Part shown: one piece after another, positions 23,451 through 34,956 of the stretch | Layout: every line of letters begins with the position of its first letter | Numbering within the stretch: position 1 is the stretch's first letter | From: Akkermansia muciniphila | GTDB lineage: Bacteria; Verrucomicrobiota; Verrucomicrobiia; Limisphaerales; UBA9464 | Reading direction: 5' to 3' | Length of the DNA stretch: 35,338 bases | Assembly: GCA_945900455.1 (NCBI GenBank) | Contig: CAMDJH010000033.1 | Span: 1-35,338, forward strand | Notes under the pieces: model-generated | Told to the model about the DNA's origin: nothing | Database searches by the model: none | The model's input: the letters and a program-made list of their open reading frames with translations, nothing else | Position numbers and translations under genes: made by a program

Positions 23451-24683
23451 ATGGCCAGACATCGCAAGCAATCACCCCCGAGCGGGCATCCGGATGCCCT
23501 CGGACCGGTCACTCGCGGCCCGAAGGTTACCGCGCCGATTCCACCGCTGCCGGTAATACCCGCCGCCACGGAGACCGACGGCTCACGGACAACATCGGCG
23601 ACGTTTTCCTTTTCTCTCCGACCTCAGGAAGTCGCTCGCCATCTTGACCGGTTTGTGATCGGCCAAACCGAGGCAAAAAAGGTGTTGAGTGTGGCGTTGT
23701 GTGACCATTTTCAGCATGTGCGCCTGACACGGGAAGGGAAGCCCGCCCGATTTTACCAAAAGCAAAATGTACTCTTGTTGGGCCCGACTGGCGTCGGCAA
23801 GACCCACCTCGTTCGCTCGGCCGCGGACTTGATCGGAGTGCCGTTTGTGAAGGCGGATGCGACCCGTTTCAGCGAAACGGGCTATGTCGGTGCGGATGTG
23901 GATGACTTGGTCCGCGACCTCATACGCCGGGCCGGCGGAGACATCTGCCAGGCGGAGCACGGGATCATCTACCTGGATGAAGCCGACAAGTTGGCAACTC
24001 GCGAGGCGGGCGCGGGACGGGATGTTTCGGGGCGCGGAGTGCAGACGAACTTGTTGAAATTGATGGAGGATGCAGACGTTCCAATTGTTTCGCCGAATGA
24101 CGTTACGGGGCAGCTTCAGGGAGCCATGGCGGCGATGCGGGGTGGTGCTCCGGCGAGTGATACGATTAACACCCGGCACATCCTTTTTATCGTGAGCGGT
24201 GCCTTCGCGGGGATGGAGCAGGTGGTGCGTCGGCGTTTGACGGCGGCGGGCGATACGTCCGGGACTGCGGCGGCTCTCACCGGTGCTCAATTGCTTAGTG
24301 CGGCCGGGACCGCGGATTTTGTGGCCTATGGATTTGAGCCTGAATTCATCGGCCGTTTACCGGTACGGGTGGCCTGTCACGGATTAAGTACGGAGGATTT
24401 GTTCAACGTGCTGCTGAAGAGCGAGAGCAGTTTGATCCATCAGTACGAGCGGGCATTTTCGGCCTATGGGATTCGGGTGAAATTCAAAGCCAGCGGCTTG
24501 CGTCGCCTGGCTCAAATAGCGACTTCTGAAAACATTGGTGCCCGCGGGTTGATGACCGCTTGCGAGCGGGTGTTTCGGGACTTCAAGTTCCAGTTGCCAT
24601 CGGCTTCGGTGAAAGAATTTACCGTAACCCGAGAATTGGTGGACGACCCGGCCGGAGAATTGCGCAGGTTGCTTGAAAGATGA
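23451..24683 (+). CDS. ClpX-like AAA+ ATPase without zinc finger or ClpP-docking loop
   Basis: The 410-residue protein matches the AAA+ core of ClpX. Walker A is GPTGVGKT (111-118), pore loop 1 is GYVG (144-147), Walker B is IIYLDEADK (172-180), the sensor 1 region is ILFIVSGAF (244-252), the arginine finger R302 lies in EPEFIGRLPV, and sensor 2 R365 lies in GARGL. It differs from true ClpX in three ways: residues 1-55 are a Pro/Thr-rich tail in place of the four-cysteine zinc domain, no IGF loop follows sensor 1 (262-275 reads RLTAAGDTSGTAAA), and the RKH pore loop is replaced by SPNDVTGQLQGAM. It is probably an ATP-driven unfoldase or remodeller that does not feed ClpP. It lies between the CAP-domain gene and the AsmA-like gene. 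Confidence 0.88.
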   Translation: MARHRKQSPPSGHPDALGPVTRGPKVTAPIPPLPVIPAATETDGSRTTSATFSFSLRPQEVARHLDRFVIGQTEAKKVLSVALCDHFQHVRLTREGKPARFYQKQNVLLLGPTGVGKTHLVRSAADLIGVPFVKADATRFSETGYVGADVDDLVRDLIRRAGGDICQAEHGIIYLDEADKLATREAGAGRDVSGRGVQTNLLKLMEDADVPIVSPNDVTGQLQGAMAAMRGGAPASDTINTRHILFIVSGAFAGMEQVVRRRLTAAGDTSGTAAALTGAQLLSAAGTADFVAYGFEPEFIGRLPVRVACHGLSTEDLFNVLLKSESSLIHQYERAFSAYGIRVKFKASGLRRLAQIATSENIGARGLMTACERVFRDFKFQLPSASVKEFTVTRELVDDPAGELRRLLER

Positions 24684-28764: not shown

Positions 28765-29208
28765 CTATTCCGCCCGAGCTTCGTCTCCGAATTGGAGTTC
28801 TCCCTCAAGGATTTCAGCGGTCGCGAGGTCGCCTCGGGTCTGCGCTCCCAGTCGAACTTCGCCTACTTTGTTGCCCGCTCGATACACCGACATCACTCGA
28901 CCGGTCGGGGGCATCTGATTCAATGAAAAATCAACGACGACGAACCGGAGCCTGGAGTTTATCGAGAGAATTCGCCCGGAACCTCCACCCATGGGTCTGG
29001 CTGAGGGAGCGCTATTGGTTAAAGTTCGAACGTTGGGAGATTTGAGGCTATTATCAGTCGCAACACTCTTATTGTCAGATAATTGGCACCCACACAATGT
29101 CAACGATGCAATGGCAATAATGGCCGGTTTTGAGGTCAGGGAAAAGGGGGTGCGAACAGGGTGCAAGGCGACATTTCTCTTTCCTGGAGGGCAATGGACG
29201 CGGGTCAT
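28765..29208 (-). CDS. Small putative lipoprotein
   Basis: The 147-residue product from ATG 29208 has a hydrophobic stretch PAIIAIASLTLCGC ending in a lipobox-like L-C-G-C, so lipid attachment at the second cysteine is likely. The mature part has a Ser/Thr/Asn linker. A compact C-terminal beta domain follows (ILSINSRLRFVVVDFSLNQM, then PTGRVMSVYRAGNKVGEVRL and TAEILEGELQFGDEARAE). It resembles short verrucomicrobial lipoproteins of unknown role with a sequence like LRFVVIDFSL. The n-region before the hydrophobic stretch is long (about 27 residues), so a later start such as TTG 29166 is possible. It precedes panB by 70 bp and is divergent from the 15-residue-repeat protein gene. Confidence 0.65.
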   Translation of the reverse strand: MTRVHCPPGKRNVALHPVRTPFSLTSKPAIIAIASLTLCGCQLSDNKSVATDNSLKSPNVRTLTNSAPSARPMGGGSGRILSINSRLRFVVVDFSLNQMPPTGRVMSVYRAGNKVGEVRLGAQTRGDLATAEILEGELQFGDEARAE

Positions 29209-29229: not shown

Positions 29230-29258
29230 TTGACTTGATGTTCTCACCTTGTCATAAA
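29230..29258 (+). promoter_or_regulatory. Sigma70-type promoter for the repeat-protein gene
   Basis: TTGACT (29230-29235, five of six consensus bases) is followed after exactly 17 bases by CATAAA (29253-29258, four of six). Transcription would start near 29265, giving a leader of about 20 bases to ATG 29285. The GTG at 29270 would be almost leaderless, which is why I prefer the ATG. Confidence 0.7.
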
Positions 29259-29284
29259 GAGGCCCGTTAGTGAAATTTTTGCTT

Positions 29285-29860
29285 ATGAACACTAAATCTT
29301 GCATCCAAGTTGCTGCTGTCGTGGCGGCTGTGCTTATTTCCCTTCCCGCTTTCGCACTGACCACAGATCAGTCGAAATCTCTGACCGCTTCGATTAGCAC
29401 TGCCAGGGCTGTCGAGGTTCCGGCTAAAGCTGCAGCTCTTGTAGCCAAGGCTATTAGGCAAGACCGTTCGGATGTGGCATCCGTCGTTGTCTCATCGGCT
29501 GCGGCATCGCACCCCTCCACTTTGGTTAATGTTGTTTCCAGCATCCTTGAGAAATTTCCGAAGGAGCTGATGCCGGTTGTCACGGCCGCCATTTCAGGCG
29601 CACCGGACAGTTCGATCCTCATTGTCGCGGCGGCTGTGAACGCGGTACCGGATCGCGCTGAGGAAGTGGTTGCTCTCGCAAGCAAGCTTTCCCCGGCCCG
29701 TACCGCCGCGTTCCAGAAGGAAGCCGCCTCGGCGAAACAGCGTCGAGTTGTTTCGAGCGCTGCAGTTATCACCGGTGGAACGATCGTTCAGACCACTCGT
29801 GAAGGCGCAGCGGTTGTCAATTTGTACGCGATCCCCGGATCGGATCCAGGCCGTCCCTGA
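29285..29860 (+). CDS. Secreted alpha-helical protein with 15-residue tandem repeats
   Basis: The 191-residue product from ATG 29285 has a clean signal peptide (MNTKSCIQVAAVVAAVLISL, then PAFA, cleavage after residue 24). The mature protein holds about six tandem repeats of the pattern VVxxAxxxxPxxxxx. Prolines stand at 77, 92, 107, 122 and 137, exactly 15 residues apart, with P46 two units earlier (15 + 16). Each unit would form one short amphipathic helix capped by Pro, giving a helical solenoid. An Ala/Lys/Arg segment (about 138-155) and a Gly/Thr-rich tail follow. I do not recognise a named family. It has its own promoter (29230-29258) and a perfect terminator (29878-29910), so it is a monocistronic, probably well expressed, exported protein. 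Confidence 0.8.
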   Translation: MNTKSCIQVAAVVAAVLISLPAFALTTDQSKSLTASISTARAVEVPAKAAALVAKAIRQDRSDVASVVVSSAAASHPSTLVNVVSSILEKFPKELMPVVTAAISGAPDSSILIVAAAVNAVPDRAEEVVALASKLSPARTAAFQKEAASAKQRRVVSSAAVITGGTIVQTTREGAAVVNLYAIPGSDPGRP

Positions 29861-29877
29861 TCGCCTTTTAATCTCTG

Positions 29878-29910
29878 AGGCCTGCCCGTTTATCGGGCAG
29901 GCCTTTTTTG
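29878..29910 (+). terminator. Rho-independent terminator
   Basis: An 11-bp perfect stem (AGGCCTGCCCG / CGGGCAGGCCT) with loop TTTAT is followed by TTTTTT. It closes the 15-residue-repeat gene 17 bases after its stop, and ends five bases before the GTG start of the M50-like gene. Confidence 0.95.
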
Positions 29911-29914
29911 TTTC

Positions 29915-30595
29915 GTGAGATCCCGCTCGCCCCGCCCCGGTAATCATTTTTTAAGGTGGTTGCTGGCAATCTTGCTCCTCCCGTTTTGCGTCGGGGTGAC
30001 GATCACCATCCTCCGTGTTATCCGGTCGATGGAGGGTGCTTTTAATTTTTGGGCTGCGTTCCTTTCAGGCGCTGTCGCTTGGTTGCTTCTATTCGTGAGC
30101 CTCCCGAAGCCCATGTGGGTCTATGTGGTGGGCCACGAACTGACTCACGCACTCGGGACCTGGACTTTCGGCGGGAAGGTCCGACGATTCAGAGTATCTC
30201 CCAGTGGCGGGCATGTGGTGATCAGTCGGAGTAATTTCTTAATCTCGCTGGCGCCATACTTCTTTCCGCTGTACGCGGCGCTTTGGTGGATCGCGTTCTA
30301 CCTCGGAGACTTGCTTTGGCATTGGCATCGCTACCTCTTCGTTTTTCACTTTGGTCTGGGGATGGCATACGCTTTCCACGCCACACTGACCGCGCACATC
30401 CTTCGTATTCGGCAGCCGGATCTGGAGGGCGAAGGTTGGGTATTTTCCGCGGCCGTGATCTGGCTCGGAAACGGTCTCGTGTTGCTGATGGGACTTTCAA
30501 CGCTGTCCTCAAGCGTTCCCGTCTTAACTGCGTTGGGTTGGTTTCTTCAGGAGACCGGCACTTGGGTCTCCCAGGTCGGACGCTGGCTTCGATAG
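29915..30595 (+). CDS. M50-like integral membrane metalloprotease
   Basis: The 226-residue protein is almost entirely membrane-embedded, with about six hydrophobic segments. The zinc motif HExxH is H74-E75-L76-T77-H78 in VYVVGHELTHALGTWTFGG, inside or next to a membrane helix as in site-2 proteases (M50). D169 in RQPDLEGEGWVFS is a possible third zinc ligand, but the usual NPDG/LDG motif is not clear. The substrate is unknown; such enzymes often cut membrane-anchored regulators. GTG 29915 is the only plausible start that keeps the first helix, although it lies right after the terminator of the preceding gene. A later ATG at residue 39 would delete one helix. It precedes the DUF1800 gene by 69 bp. 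Confidence 0.78.
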   Translation: MRSRSPRPGNHFLRWLLAILLLPFCVGVTITILRVIRSMEGAFNFWAAFLSGAVAWLLLFVSLPKPMWVYVVGHELTHALGTWTFGGKVRRFRVSPSGGHVVISRSNFLISLAPYFFPLYAALWWIAFYLGDLLWHWHRYLFVFHFGLGMAYAFHATLTAHILRIRQPDLEGEGWVFSAAVIWLGNGLVLLMGLSTLSSSVPVLTALGWFLQETGTWVSQVGRWLR

Positions 30596-30664: not shown

Positions 30665-33304
30665 ATGATCCCGTTTCCATCTCCTCCTTGGTTTTGCGTG
30701 GCGCTTGCCGCCTTCGTCTTCCTGGGTGCAGCTCCGGGAAGAGCGATCGAGAGTGGTATTGCGGGGATTCAGATCGAAACGGGGCACGTCAGGCTCAGCG
30801 TGAATCCCGAACCAGCGGCGGTGCACTATCGGGTGCTGCGGACGGATGCACTCGGAGGGGGATTCACCGAGGATAAGGGGGGAGTGTTCGACGGCCTCGC
30901 TTGGTTGGGGGTGCCTGCGGGGGAGCAGGCGTTCTACAAAGTGGATGTCACTCAGATGACGTCTGAAGAACTGCTGATTTCGACCGTTCTAAATCGGCTC
31001 GCCTATGGGCCGTCACCGGATGAATTGGAGAGGTTGCGCAGGATTGGGGCGGACGCCTATATACATGAACAACTGGCGCCAGAGAACATCCGGGAGGATC
31101 TGGAGGAATATGTGGTGATTCCCCCCGATGCAGCCGGGTGGCAGAAGGTGGTCATCACCGGATTGGCAACCTCGACCTCGTTTCACATTTACTTGAATGA
31201 ACCCGGAGAGGCCTATGTGGACGAGGTTCGCATGGTCAGCGGGGGGCGGGAAAATTCAGGACTACCAAATCTAGTAAAAAACGGAGAGTTCGACGTCGGC
31301 CTTGCCCCGGCCTGGACGGTGGGTAAGAACCTTGCCTCATCCGCGGTGAGTTCGGATTCGATCTACGCCGGAGTCGGCGCCTTGCATTTGATCGCAGCTG
31401 CGGCCGGGACCTCGACGGCGAGCAATCGAGTCTCTCAGACGATCGCGTCACTGGTCACGGGGAACACGTACACGCTGAGTTATTATTACCTCACAGCACC
31501 GGGGTTGTCGCCTCCGGTAGTCCGCCTCAGCTCCACCGGAACTTCGGAGAGTGGAGATGTCCTCACGACTGCCATCAGTAGCGAGCAGCCCCCAAGCAAT
31601 CCCGGGCAAGTTGTCGGTCAAATCCTTTCCGGCGAGGGGAGCATGGCCTCGCTACGTTCCTGGCACATCCAGCACGCCGTCAAATCAAAGCGCCAGTTAC
31701 TCGAGGTGATGCGTCAATTCGTGGAGAACCACTTTGTCACCGAGTACTCGAAGTCCCGGAGCTATCTCGATTCATACTATAGCAGCGATAGTGGGCAGTC
31801 CGCTCGCCAGGCGGCTCGCATGGAACTTGTGGAAAACCTGAAATGGCGGCAGGCATTGATGAATCCCCAATGCACCTTTTACGATCTTCTCCAGATCAGC
31901 GCTGAGAGCCCGGCAATGATTCTATTCCTGGATACCGTGGCCTCCAAGGGAACGGTCAAATCGAATTCTCCGGCCAAAATCGCTGACGTCAATGCACTAT
32001 CGCCTTCGGCGGCGGGTGCTAACATCACCCAGATTGCAAATGAGAACTATGCCCGGGAGATCTGCGAGCTGTTCTGTTTTGGAGTGGATAACGGCTATGA
32101 CCAGCAGGATATCGTCCAGATTTCCCGGATTTGGACTGGCTGGACGGTTGGTTACGTGGATCGCGACAGAACGAATGATCCGTTCGCTACGAACTATGTT
32201 GATCGCGAGCTTCGGAAGCAGTTTATCGGAACGATTCTGGAGACGAACAACACCATCACTAATTTCGTCGGCGAATGGTCCATGGTGTACAAGGCAACCA
32301 ATCATCATCAGGGGCCCAAGTGGTGTTTCTATGAGCAATTGGCCAACGGAAACGTGGATACCAACACCCCGAAGCGAGTTCCCGCGCGGTTCGGTCCACC
32401 TTGGGCTGGCCGGGAATACGGACTGCTCGTCCGAGGCGGTCTCAAGGAGACGAATACCTTGACGGAAGCCTATCAATTGATTCACCACCTGGCAGACCAG
32501 CCATTCACCGAAGAGTATCTATCGGTGAAATTATGCCGCCTGCTGGTTCATGAAGAGTTTCGTCACGGGTACGATTTCACGGATGACCAGATCTCGCCGG
32601 AGGAGGCGTTGGTGCATGCCTGCATGATGGCTTGGGAACAACCTCGCGCGGGTGGCCCCAAGGGTCAGATTCGCGAGGTGCTCAAGGTAATATTTGCATC
32701 GGACTTGTTTCGATCTCACACCGCTTCGATGCAAAAAGTCCGAACCCCCTTGGAGTATGCAGTGGCCACGGTCCGCGCGTTGCGGGCGGCCAAGCCGGAC
32801 GGTAGTTACACGGCAGAGTTGGACTCGGGAGACGTTGGTGGTGGGATTCTGTTGCGAGCCGGCAATATGCGCCTCTTCGATCGGGCGGAGCCGGATGGGT
32901 ATCCGGAAGATGGGGCCGGGTGGATCAGTGCAGGTTCCCTCGCCGAACGACTGCGTTTTATCCAATCCGCGTTATCGGCGGCAGGCGATTCGGATGCCGG
33001 CGCCGGCACGGTCACCGACCCCGCGGGGTTGTTAAAGCTGAAGGCACCGGAAAGTGTGTCCGATGCGGGTGCGGTCGCGGATTTCTTTCTCGGCATTCTC
33101 TTCCCGGCCGAGGGGGCCGCAAATCTCGCGCCATTTCGGAAACTGGCCATCGACTTTCTGAATTCCGCAGAGTCCCTGAACGTAAGCGGCCAGATGGTCA
33201 ATTCTCCGTTCAGAAATTTGCAGCCATCCTCTACTGCGTACGATACGCGGATTCGAGCTTTGGTGTCTTGGCTGATGACGTCCCAACGATTTCAGGAGCA
33301 ATAG
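30665..33304 (+). CDS. Secreted DUF1800 protein with carbohydrate-binding-like insert
   Basis: The 879-residue protein has a signal peptide (VALAAFVFLGAAPGRA). DUF1800 begins near residue 98 with TSEELLISTVLNRLAYGPSP. It is interrupted at about 145-315 by a beta-sandwich-like insert (VYVDEVRM-type strand: EPGEAYVDEVRMVSGG, then LVKNGEFDVGLAPAWTVG and NTYTLSYYYL) like CBM/galactose-binding modules common in secreted verrucomicrobial proteins. DUF1800 resumes with LRSWHIQHAVKSKRQLLEVM, NPQCTFYDLLQISAESPAMI, NYAREICELFCFGVDNGYDQ and HHQGPKW. The function of DUF1800 is not established. The DUF1501 gene follows after 47 bp; this pairing is very common in Planctomycetes, Verrucomicrobia and others and points to an exported two-protein unit. 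ATG 30665 has a CCCCCATC leader. Confidence 0.9.
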   Translation: MIPFPSPPWFCVALAAFVFLGAAPGRAIESGIAGIQIETGHVRLSVNPEPAAVHYRVLRTDALGGGFTEDKGGVFDGLAWLGVPAGEQAFYKVDVTQMTSEELLISTVLNRLAYGPSPDELERLRRIGADAYIHEQLAPENIREDLEEYVVIPPDAAGWQKVVITGLATSTSFHIYLNEPGEAYVDEVRMVSGGRENSGLPNLVKNGEFDVGLAPAWTVGKNLASSAVSSDSIYAGVGALHLIAAAAGTSTASNRVSQTIASLVTGNTYTLSYYYLTAPGLSPPVVRLSSTGTSESGDVLTTAISSEQPPSNPGQVVGQILSGEGSMASLRSWHIQHAVKSKRQLLEVMRQFVENHFVTEYSKSRSYLDSYYSSDSGQSARQAARMELVENLKWRQALMNPQCTFYDLLQISAESPAMILFLDTVASKGTVKSNSPAKIADVNALSPSAAGANITQIANENYAREICELFCFGVDNGYDQQDIVQISRIWTGWTVGYVDRDRTNDPFATNYVDRELRKQFIGTILETNNTITNFVGEWSMVYKATNHHQGPKWCFYEQLANGNVDTNTPKRVPARFGPPWAGREYGLLVRGGLKETNTLTEAYQLIHHLADQPFTEEYLSVKLCRLLVHEEFRHGYDFTDDQISPEEALVHACMMAWEQPRAGGPKGQIREVLKVIFASDLFRSHTASMQKVRTPLEYAVATVRALRAAKPDGSYTAELDSGDVGGGILLRAGNMRLFDRAEPDGYPEDGAGWISAGSLAERLRFIQSALSAAGDSDAGAGTVTDPAGLLKLKAPESVSDAGAVADFFLGILFPAEGAANLAPFRKLAIDFLNSAESLNVSGQMVNSPFRNLQPSSTAYDTRIRALVSWLMTSQRFQEQ

Positions 33305-33351
33305 CGCCGTTGTCACCCGCTCTGCCTTTCCGAATTTGATCCTCTGATCCC

Positions 33352-34956
33352 ATGAATTCCTCGTTTCAAATCCTCACCCGCCGGGATTTTCTCTCACGTA
33401 GCACGCGGTTGGCGGCGGCCGGAGCGCTTGCGGCGCTGGCCGATGTACCGTTCTTCGTGAAGCAAGCACTGGCCGATGGCAGCATTGGGAAGCCCCTCGC
33501 CAATGGACGGGTGAAAAAGCTGCTCTTTGTCTTCCTTCGCGGCGGTAACGACGCGCTCAACTGCGTTGCCCCGCTGGAAGATGATGCCTACGTACGGAAT
33601 CGTCCCACGATTGCCATCGCGAAAAATCCCAGTTGGAGCTATGGGGGCGGTACTCCCGCACTCTGGACTCCCAGCGGTGCCACAGGTCCGGTCTACTCGC
33701 AGTTTGGAATTCCACTCGGGAATGGATTCGCCGCCCTGCATCCGGCGTTGAAGTTCATGGTCCCAGCGTATAATTCCGGTGAGTTGGCCATTATCCACCG
33801 CGTCGCCTACCCAAAACAATCTCGGTCGCATTTTGATTCCCAGGTATACTGGGAGACGGGGGTCCCCTCCAATAGCGCCTTCCGGGAGGGCATCCTCTAC
33901 CGAGCCATGGTGGAGAGCGGTCGCGCCCGCATCGCGCCCTTGACGGGTGTGTCGTTCCAATCCTCGCTGCCAATGATCCTTCGCGGGTCCGGCGCCGCCA
34001 TGACCAATCTGACCAGTCCCGAGCGTTACGACCTGTCTGGCATCCCGGACAATGCCAAGGGCGGGGCCAAAGCCGATCTGTTCTTGCGTGCAGCAAACCA
34101 GATTCCGTCGGCTGACAAACGCGATCGTGAATTGCTCCAACTGCAATACGGCAATCTCTCCGATACGCTCGCGTTGTTCCAGGATCTGATCGCCGGTGAC
34201 TTCAAGCGACAATTCCTTGATGACGTCGATACCGACGGAGATCGCCCGTACAATCTTTTTCCAGATTCGAATGATACCAACGGCGGATGGAAACGGACAC
34301 CGGCCAATGACCCGGCGAAGTATGTGGTTCCGGCCAACACCTATGGATTCATGAAGAATTTGAAATCGGCGGCGGTGGTGCTGAACAAGACGGATGCAAT
34401 TGTCGCCGGTACCCAATTGGATAATTTTGACACGCACTCCAAGCAGGGCGGTGCCACCGGCAGCCAGGCGCGCCTCTTGCAACAGGTTGGATGGGGCATG
34501 TACGCGTTGAAAAAATACTTCTCCGCCTATGGTGACAAATGCCGCTGGGAAGATGTCGTCGTCGTCACGCTGAGCGAATTTGGGCGTACTTCGAAGGAGA
34601 ATAACGACAACGGCACCGACCATGCCGAAGCCAATGTGATGTGGGTCGCCGGCGGCGGTGTAAAGGGATTCCAGGCGGGGCAGCGGAGCGGCGTGTTCAA
34701 TTGCGGTCCCAGCGACCCAATCGCCTGGAATACCGGGGACACCGGCACGATGTTCGGCGTCGAGAAGCGGTATCTCAAGCGGGCTACCGACTACCGGAGT
34801 GTGCTGGGAGAACTCATCCGCGATCACCTCGGTGCCACCCAGGAGCAGCTGAACCGGATCATTCCAGGGTATGCCCAAGGAAGCGAAGTCTTGAAGGACG
34901 GCGGCACTCAAACCCGGGACAGTACCAGGGCGACCGGGGAGCTTGGATTGGTTTAG
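33352..34956 (+). CDS. Tat-exported DUF1501 (sulfatase-like fold) protein
   Basis: The 534-residue protein begins with a twin-arginine signal (LTRRDFLSRSTRLAAAGALA, R10-R11) ending near ALADG at residue 40. The mature part has LLFVFLRGGNDALNCVAPLE, the usual N-terminal motif of DUF1501. YPKQSRSHFDSQVYWETG, DNFDTHSKQGG and VVVTLSEFGRTSKENNDNGT, followed by DHAEANVMWVAGGGVKG, are the alkaline-phosphatase/sulfatase-like metal-site segments (D, H, E and D-H). The fold suggests a metal-dependent hydrolase, but no activity is established for the family. It follows the DUF1800 gene by 47 bp, so the two are probably co-transcribed. Tat export suggests folding with a bound metal in the cytoplasm. The last 30 residues (Gly/Thr-rich) are variable. 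Confidence 0.93.
   Translation: MNSSFQILTRRDFLSRSTRLAAAGALAALADVPFFVKQALADGSIGKPLANGRVKKLLFVFLRGGNDALNCVAPLEDDAYVRNRPTIAIAKNPSWSYGGGTPALWTPSGATGPVYSQFGIPLGNGFAALHPALKFMVPAYNSGELAIIHRVAYPKQSRSHFDSQVYWETGVPSNSAFREGILYRAMVESGRARIAPLTGVSFQSSLPMILRGSGAAMTNLTSPERYDLSGIPDNAKGGAKADLFLRAANQIPSADKRDRELLQLQYGNLSDTLALFQDLIAGDFKRQFLDDVDTDGDRPYNLFPDSNDTNGGWKRTPANDPAKYVVPANTYGFMKNLKSAAVVLNKTDAIVAGTQLDNFDTHSKQGGATGSQARLLQQVGWGMYALKKYFSAYGDKCRWEDVVVVTLSEFGRTSKENNDNGTDHAEANVMWVAGGGVKGFQAGQRSGVFNCGPSDPIAWNTGDTGTMFGVEKRYLKRATDYRSVLGELIRDHLGATQEQLNRIIPGYAQGSEVLKDGGTQTRDSTRATGELGLV

Follow-up and report, generated by a model that had tools for sequence, protein, structure and literature searches.

The gene at positions 29285–29860 (+ strand) of the window, the whole 35,338-nucleotide stretch of DNA that was analysed, encodes a 191-residue protein with an export signal and a 15-residue repeat, and is judged here to represent a new, unnamed, order-restricted family of exported helical repeat proteins. 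The role that we favour, at a probability of roughly 45%, is that of a periplasmic or secreted alpha-solenoid scaffold with a docking tail, which would be produced from its own transcription unit and would act in a protease-linked pathway.

The gene, its export signal and its transcription unit

The open reading frame runs from ATG 29285 to the stop codon at 29858–29860, and ATG 29285 is the correct start rather than the upstream GTG at 29270, because the latter is out of frame in the homologue L005. Comparison with two close relatives yields dN/dS values of 0.105 and 0.120, which indicate purifying selection, and the differences fall mainly at third codon positions; the frame is therefore a real gene. 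Its product starts with a signal peptide (MNTKSCIQVAAVVAAVLISLPAFA, 29285–29356, + strand) which, read directly, is of typical form with AFA at its end, and homologues carry an N-terminus of the same type that closes with A-x-A. Judged by this comparison, the protein carries a Sec-type export signal; the frame from ATG 29285 and the conserved form of the signal peptide agree on the 191-residue exported product that an earlier, sequence-only reading had proposed. The mature form comprises 167 residues and is without a recognisable anchor.

Upstream of the gene, a promoter can be read directly at 29230–29258 (+ strand), consisting of TTGACT (29230–29235), a 17-bp spacer and CATAAA (29253–29258). 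Its earlier description as near-consensus holds for the spacer and the −35 element, but the −10 hexamer matches at only four of six positions. TTGAC lies 55–80 nt upstream of the ATG in 30/30 family members, with a chance of about 0.11 for each, and among homologues a degenerate −10 element usually follows it after 17 nt. Downstream, an intrinsic terminator (29877–29911, + strand) combines a 12-bp stem (29877–29905), containing nine G-C pairs, with a T run; no other in the window approaches it in strength, it merits the label of textbook terminator that it had received, and a hairpin with a T run also follows the gene in no fewer than 24 of the 30 homologues. The conservation of these two elements argues for the self-contained transcription unit that had been suggested, and high expression of the gene is a fair guess from such signals.

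The putative 5' leader of five homologues (L008, L015, L017, L022 and L028, from genera g3, g5, g7 and g8) carries the element GTTGGTTG, without an obvious Shine-Dalgarno sequence. The combination of promoter and leader element was considered as the mark of a regulon and rejected, its matches in eight genomes being no commoner than those of a reversed-pattern control; no repeated target besides the repeat gene was seen in these genomes. On the minus strand, a possible lipoprotein gene (28765–29208), whose product starts with MTRVHC and contains a lipobox-like LCGC, is divergent from the repeat gene, and sequences similar to it (~61–71%) were seen only in the two relatives of the same genus.

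The fifteen-residue repeat and its predicted fold

Prolines 77, 92, 107, 122 and 137 are spaced by exactly 15 residues, and random placement of the same number of prolines would yield five with equal spacing, whatever the step, with a probability of about 7e-5. Self-similarity of the protein is strongest at lag 15, followed by the multiples 30 and 45, with z values at lag 15 of 4.9 for the single sequence and 8.2 for the family profile, so that the exact spacing first noticed by eye stands. P46, which had been placed two units earlier, is one residue out of register, since 31 residues rather than 30 separate it from P77. The VVxxA signature attributed to every unit precedes P77, P107 and P137 in exact form; the corresponding residues are VVSSI ahead of P92 and IVAAA ahead of P122. 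Across the homologues of the own family the spacing is conserved, P77, P92, P107 and P137 being present in 30/30 sequences and P122 being lost in one genus (g7), in three sequences through a one-residue deletion. Units that begin with proline start at residues 77, 92, 107 and 122, while P137 opens the last helix of a core that covers residues 27–158 (29363–29758, + strand) and is predicted to contain eight helices. A period of 34–40 residues, as expected for the two-helix repeats of TPR, Sel1 or HEAT proteins, was not found, the strongest period being 15.

The AlphaFold model, for which the input consisted of two near-identical sequences, has a mean pLDDT of 69 and a pTM of 0.60, with values of 84–89 in the core and low confidence in the tail. 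Its eight helices are mostly 14 residues long and are separated by one-residue breaks, and those at 53–66, 68–81, 83–96 and 98–111 (mature numbering) are in line, at the level of a prediction, with the proposal of one helix per 15-residue unit. The hydrophobic moment of the unit peaks at 100 degrees and its conserved hydrophobic face is formed by unit positions 4, 7, 8 and 11, a pattern that would agree with amphipathic helices that pack through one face. The protein is thus predicted to be an alpha-solenoid. With HEAT/ARM and TPR alpha-solenoids, the known examples of which usually bind other proteins, it would share stacked short helices, two of its units (30 residues) being about the size of one helical hairpin there; it differs from them in having one 15-residue unit per helix, in being exported and restricted to one order, and in that no member of its family has a Pfam match with a meaningful score.

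The best solved structural matches of the predicted model are designed helical repeats, namely DHR4 (PDB 5cwb) and 8cwy, with Z scores of 12.2–12.6 and rmsd values of 2.4–2.9 over 133–135 residues. A Z score of about 12 is moderate for helical repeats and lies within the range that they reach without relationship; the two matches are artificial, longer per unit, and unrelated by descent. A Foldseek search of the model against the PDB gave no match at E <0.001.

An exported, Ala/Val-rich protein with amphipathic helices could also be a membrane-active protein that acts on other cells, and a phmmer search does return the MakA and NheL1 chains, with E values of 0.2–0.3 that correspond to chance level. 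Helices of 14 residues are, however, too short to span a membrane, the gene is mostly present in single copy and under purifying selection, and searches of phages, plasmids and viral contigs recovered no relatives, so that we consider this reading very improbable.

Family membership and repeat number

Homologues occur in 39/50 genomes of the same GTDB family and, in a search with a profile that combines members of eleven GTDB families, in 148/293 genomes and 78/118 genera of the same order. The remainder of the class (about 150 genomes) gave one borderline match (E 2e-6), and a profile search of a phylum-level genome sample gave no match except for the own genome. It is of note that the same genome holds a second, distant member (L079, G000:C346, 1697–2146), which has about three units and ends in a lysine-rich stretch.

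Neither the window protein nor alignments of 30 and 26 members matched a curated family of Pfam or NCBIfam at cut-off, including the TPR, Sel1 and HEAT profiles of both collections; only scattered weak matches appeared, such as INTS1_R4 (E 0.0024) and HEAT_ATR (E 0.09). No known domain was found across residues 46–150 in these family searches, PDB sequences yielded no match, a PHROGs search found no family, and nothing relevant to the family was found in the literature. The suspicion that the protein lacks a named family is thereby borne out by the curated profiles and the PDB sequences.

Within the own GTDB family, the number of units is fixed and core lengths are constant except for one-residue gaps at P122 (three sequences) and position 32 (two sequences). 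In other GTDB families, the core can be aligned to about P137 and is followed by extra whole 15-residue units, the proline series extending to 154 in L060, 149 in L075, 168 in L077 and 172 in L066, and comprising three prolines in L079. A unit profile, which was built from the own family and for that reason undercounts distant members, counts as many as seven units in register (in L154 and L160), against almost never more than two in random sequences of matched composition. The expectation that repeat number would vary in steps of 15 residues therefore holds between GTDB families but not within the own one. As read from these sequences, the repeat architecture of the family is well supported, as is its transcription unit.

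The sequence-only reading had mentioned, as speculation, a structural or surface-coat role for a protein that it held likely to be abundant; such a protein might be a structural or surface-layer component that assembles by way of its repeats. In favour of this are the signal peptide, the repeats, a promoter of its own and the strength of the terminator, and designed helical-repeat filaments and crystals are among the best solved structural matches. A mature chain of only 167 residues with no recognisable anchor argues against this role, as does the distribution of the gene, which is usually present in one copy per genome and is undetected in half of the order; we regard it as unlikely.

The C-terminal peptide, the neighbouring genes and possible functions

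After a variable linker that is modelled with low confidence, the protein ends with the peptide YAIPGSDPGRP (29825–29857, + strand). The C-terminus is conserved, in a form resembling Y..PG.DP.RP within the own family and frequently as Y..P in members from other families, while the linker is not conserved. Neither motif behaves as a general sorting tag: DPxRP has nine DNA matches in the genome of the window (G000), with a long open frame only at the repeat gene, and YxxP closes 2/572 open reading frames in 0.8 Mb of G144, one of them the family member. The simplest reading of the tail would be that of a family-specific docking or recognition peptide. The sequence-only reading mentioned neither this peptide nor the conserved neighbour described below.

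The gene that follows (29915–30595, + strand) encodes an M50B-like membrane protein with an HELTH motif and a conserved downstream aspartate, D169, which we assume from knowledge of the family to be a possible third metal ligand. It resembles M50B-like peptidases (PF13398) in its HExxH motif, hydrophobic membrane segments and downstream Asp, and differs from them in scoring below the curated Pfam cut-off (E 1.1e-4; 22.4 bits against a cut-off of 26), its predicted model being too poor to compare. Of 34 sequences, 97% keep H74, E75, H78 and D169, and the one deviating row had been extracted incorrectly. The M50-like gene lies directly after the repeat gene on the same strand in 22/38 genomes of the own family, including all tested members of six genera, 1/3 in g9 and 0/14 in g7, and the two are also adjacent in four other families (f14, f29, f52 and f57); in g7 and most other families it is located elsewhere. 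It is found in 203/293 genomes of the order, as compared to 148/293 for the repeat gene, and many genomes carry it without the repeat protein. Because the M50-like gene is the more widespread of the two and the genes are not linked in g7 or in most other families, it is no obligate partner of the repeat gene. In genomes without a match, no diverged repeat gene was seen just upstream of the M50-like gene, some contigs being short at that point.

A ClpX-like AAA ATPase gene (23451–24683, + strand), whose product scores below both NCBIfam ClpX cut-offs, has homologues directly upstream of the repeat gene in g7 and g8. In G043 and G044 (L103, L104), the ClpX-like gene is directly followed by the M50-like gene, and the repeat gene is absent exactly between them. 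The order of the three genes suggests a shared pathway in which the link is not obligate.

Several further arrangements were observed in the vicinity of these genes. In one genome (L068, G197:C98) two repeat-family genes flank the M50-like gene on one strand, and the ClpX-like homologue of G043 has a CxxC zinc-finger-like N-terminus. A DUF1800 and DUF1501 pair lies downstream of the M50-like gene in the window (30665–34956), and in genus g3 (L084, L086, L099) such a pair occupies the opposite flank of the repeat gene and is oriented divergently.

The recurrent order of repeat and M50-like genes on one strand, the retention of HExxH and D169 in nearly all M50-like sequences, and the ClpX-like gene that adjoins one or the other could also be explained if the repeat protein were a substrate or regulator of the M50-like membrane protease, trimmed by it or controlling it, as part of envelope signalling or quality control, possibly together with the ClpX-like ATPase. 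A direct relationship of this kind appears improbable in view of the strong terminator between the two genes, their lack of linkage in g7 and most other families, and their unequal distribution within the order.

According to the scaffold reading that we prefer, the gene would be transcribed from its own sigma-70-type promoter, with the terminator insulating it from its M50-like neighbour, and the protein, once exported by the Sec route, would fold into a small alpha-solenoid whose helices, mostly 14 residues long, each correspond to one 15-residue unit and start with a proline; a flexible linker and the short conserved C-terminal peptide would come after the solenoid. The solenoid may bind one partner while the tail docks to a second, and the protein probably shares a pathway with the membrane-metalloprotease-like neighbour.

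Tentatively, and with considerable doubt, one may see here an order-specific class of exported alpha-solenoids with a single-helix 15-residue unit, growth by whole units and a family-specific docking peptide, which would work with a conserved membrane metalloprotease in an undescribed envelope pathway. What emerges is an exported family without a name that roughly half of the genomes sampled from a large bacterial order possess, an order known here mainly through draft genomes. Its minimal one-helix unit, with changes by whole units between lineages, is a counterpart in nature to designed helical repeats. Both the conserved tail and the conserved metalloprotease-like neighbour provide concrete handles for finding the function of the protein, which, if its expression is as strong as the transcription unit suggests, could also be used to mark the order in proteomic data.
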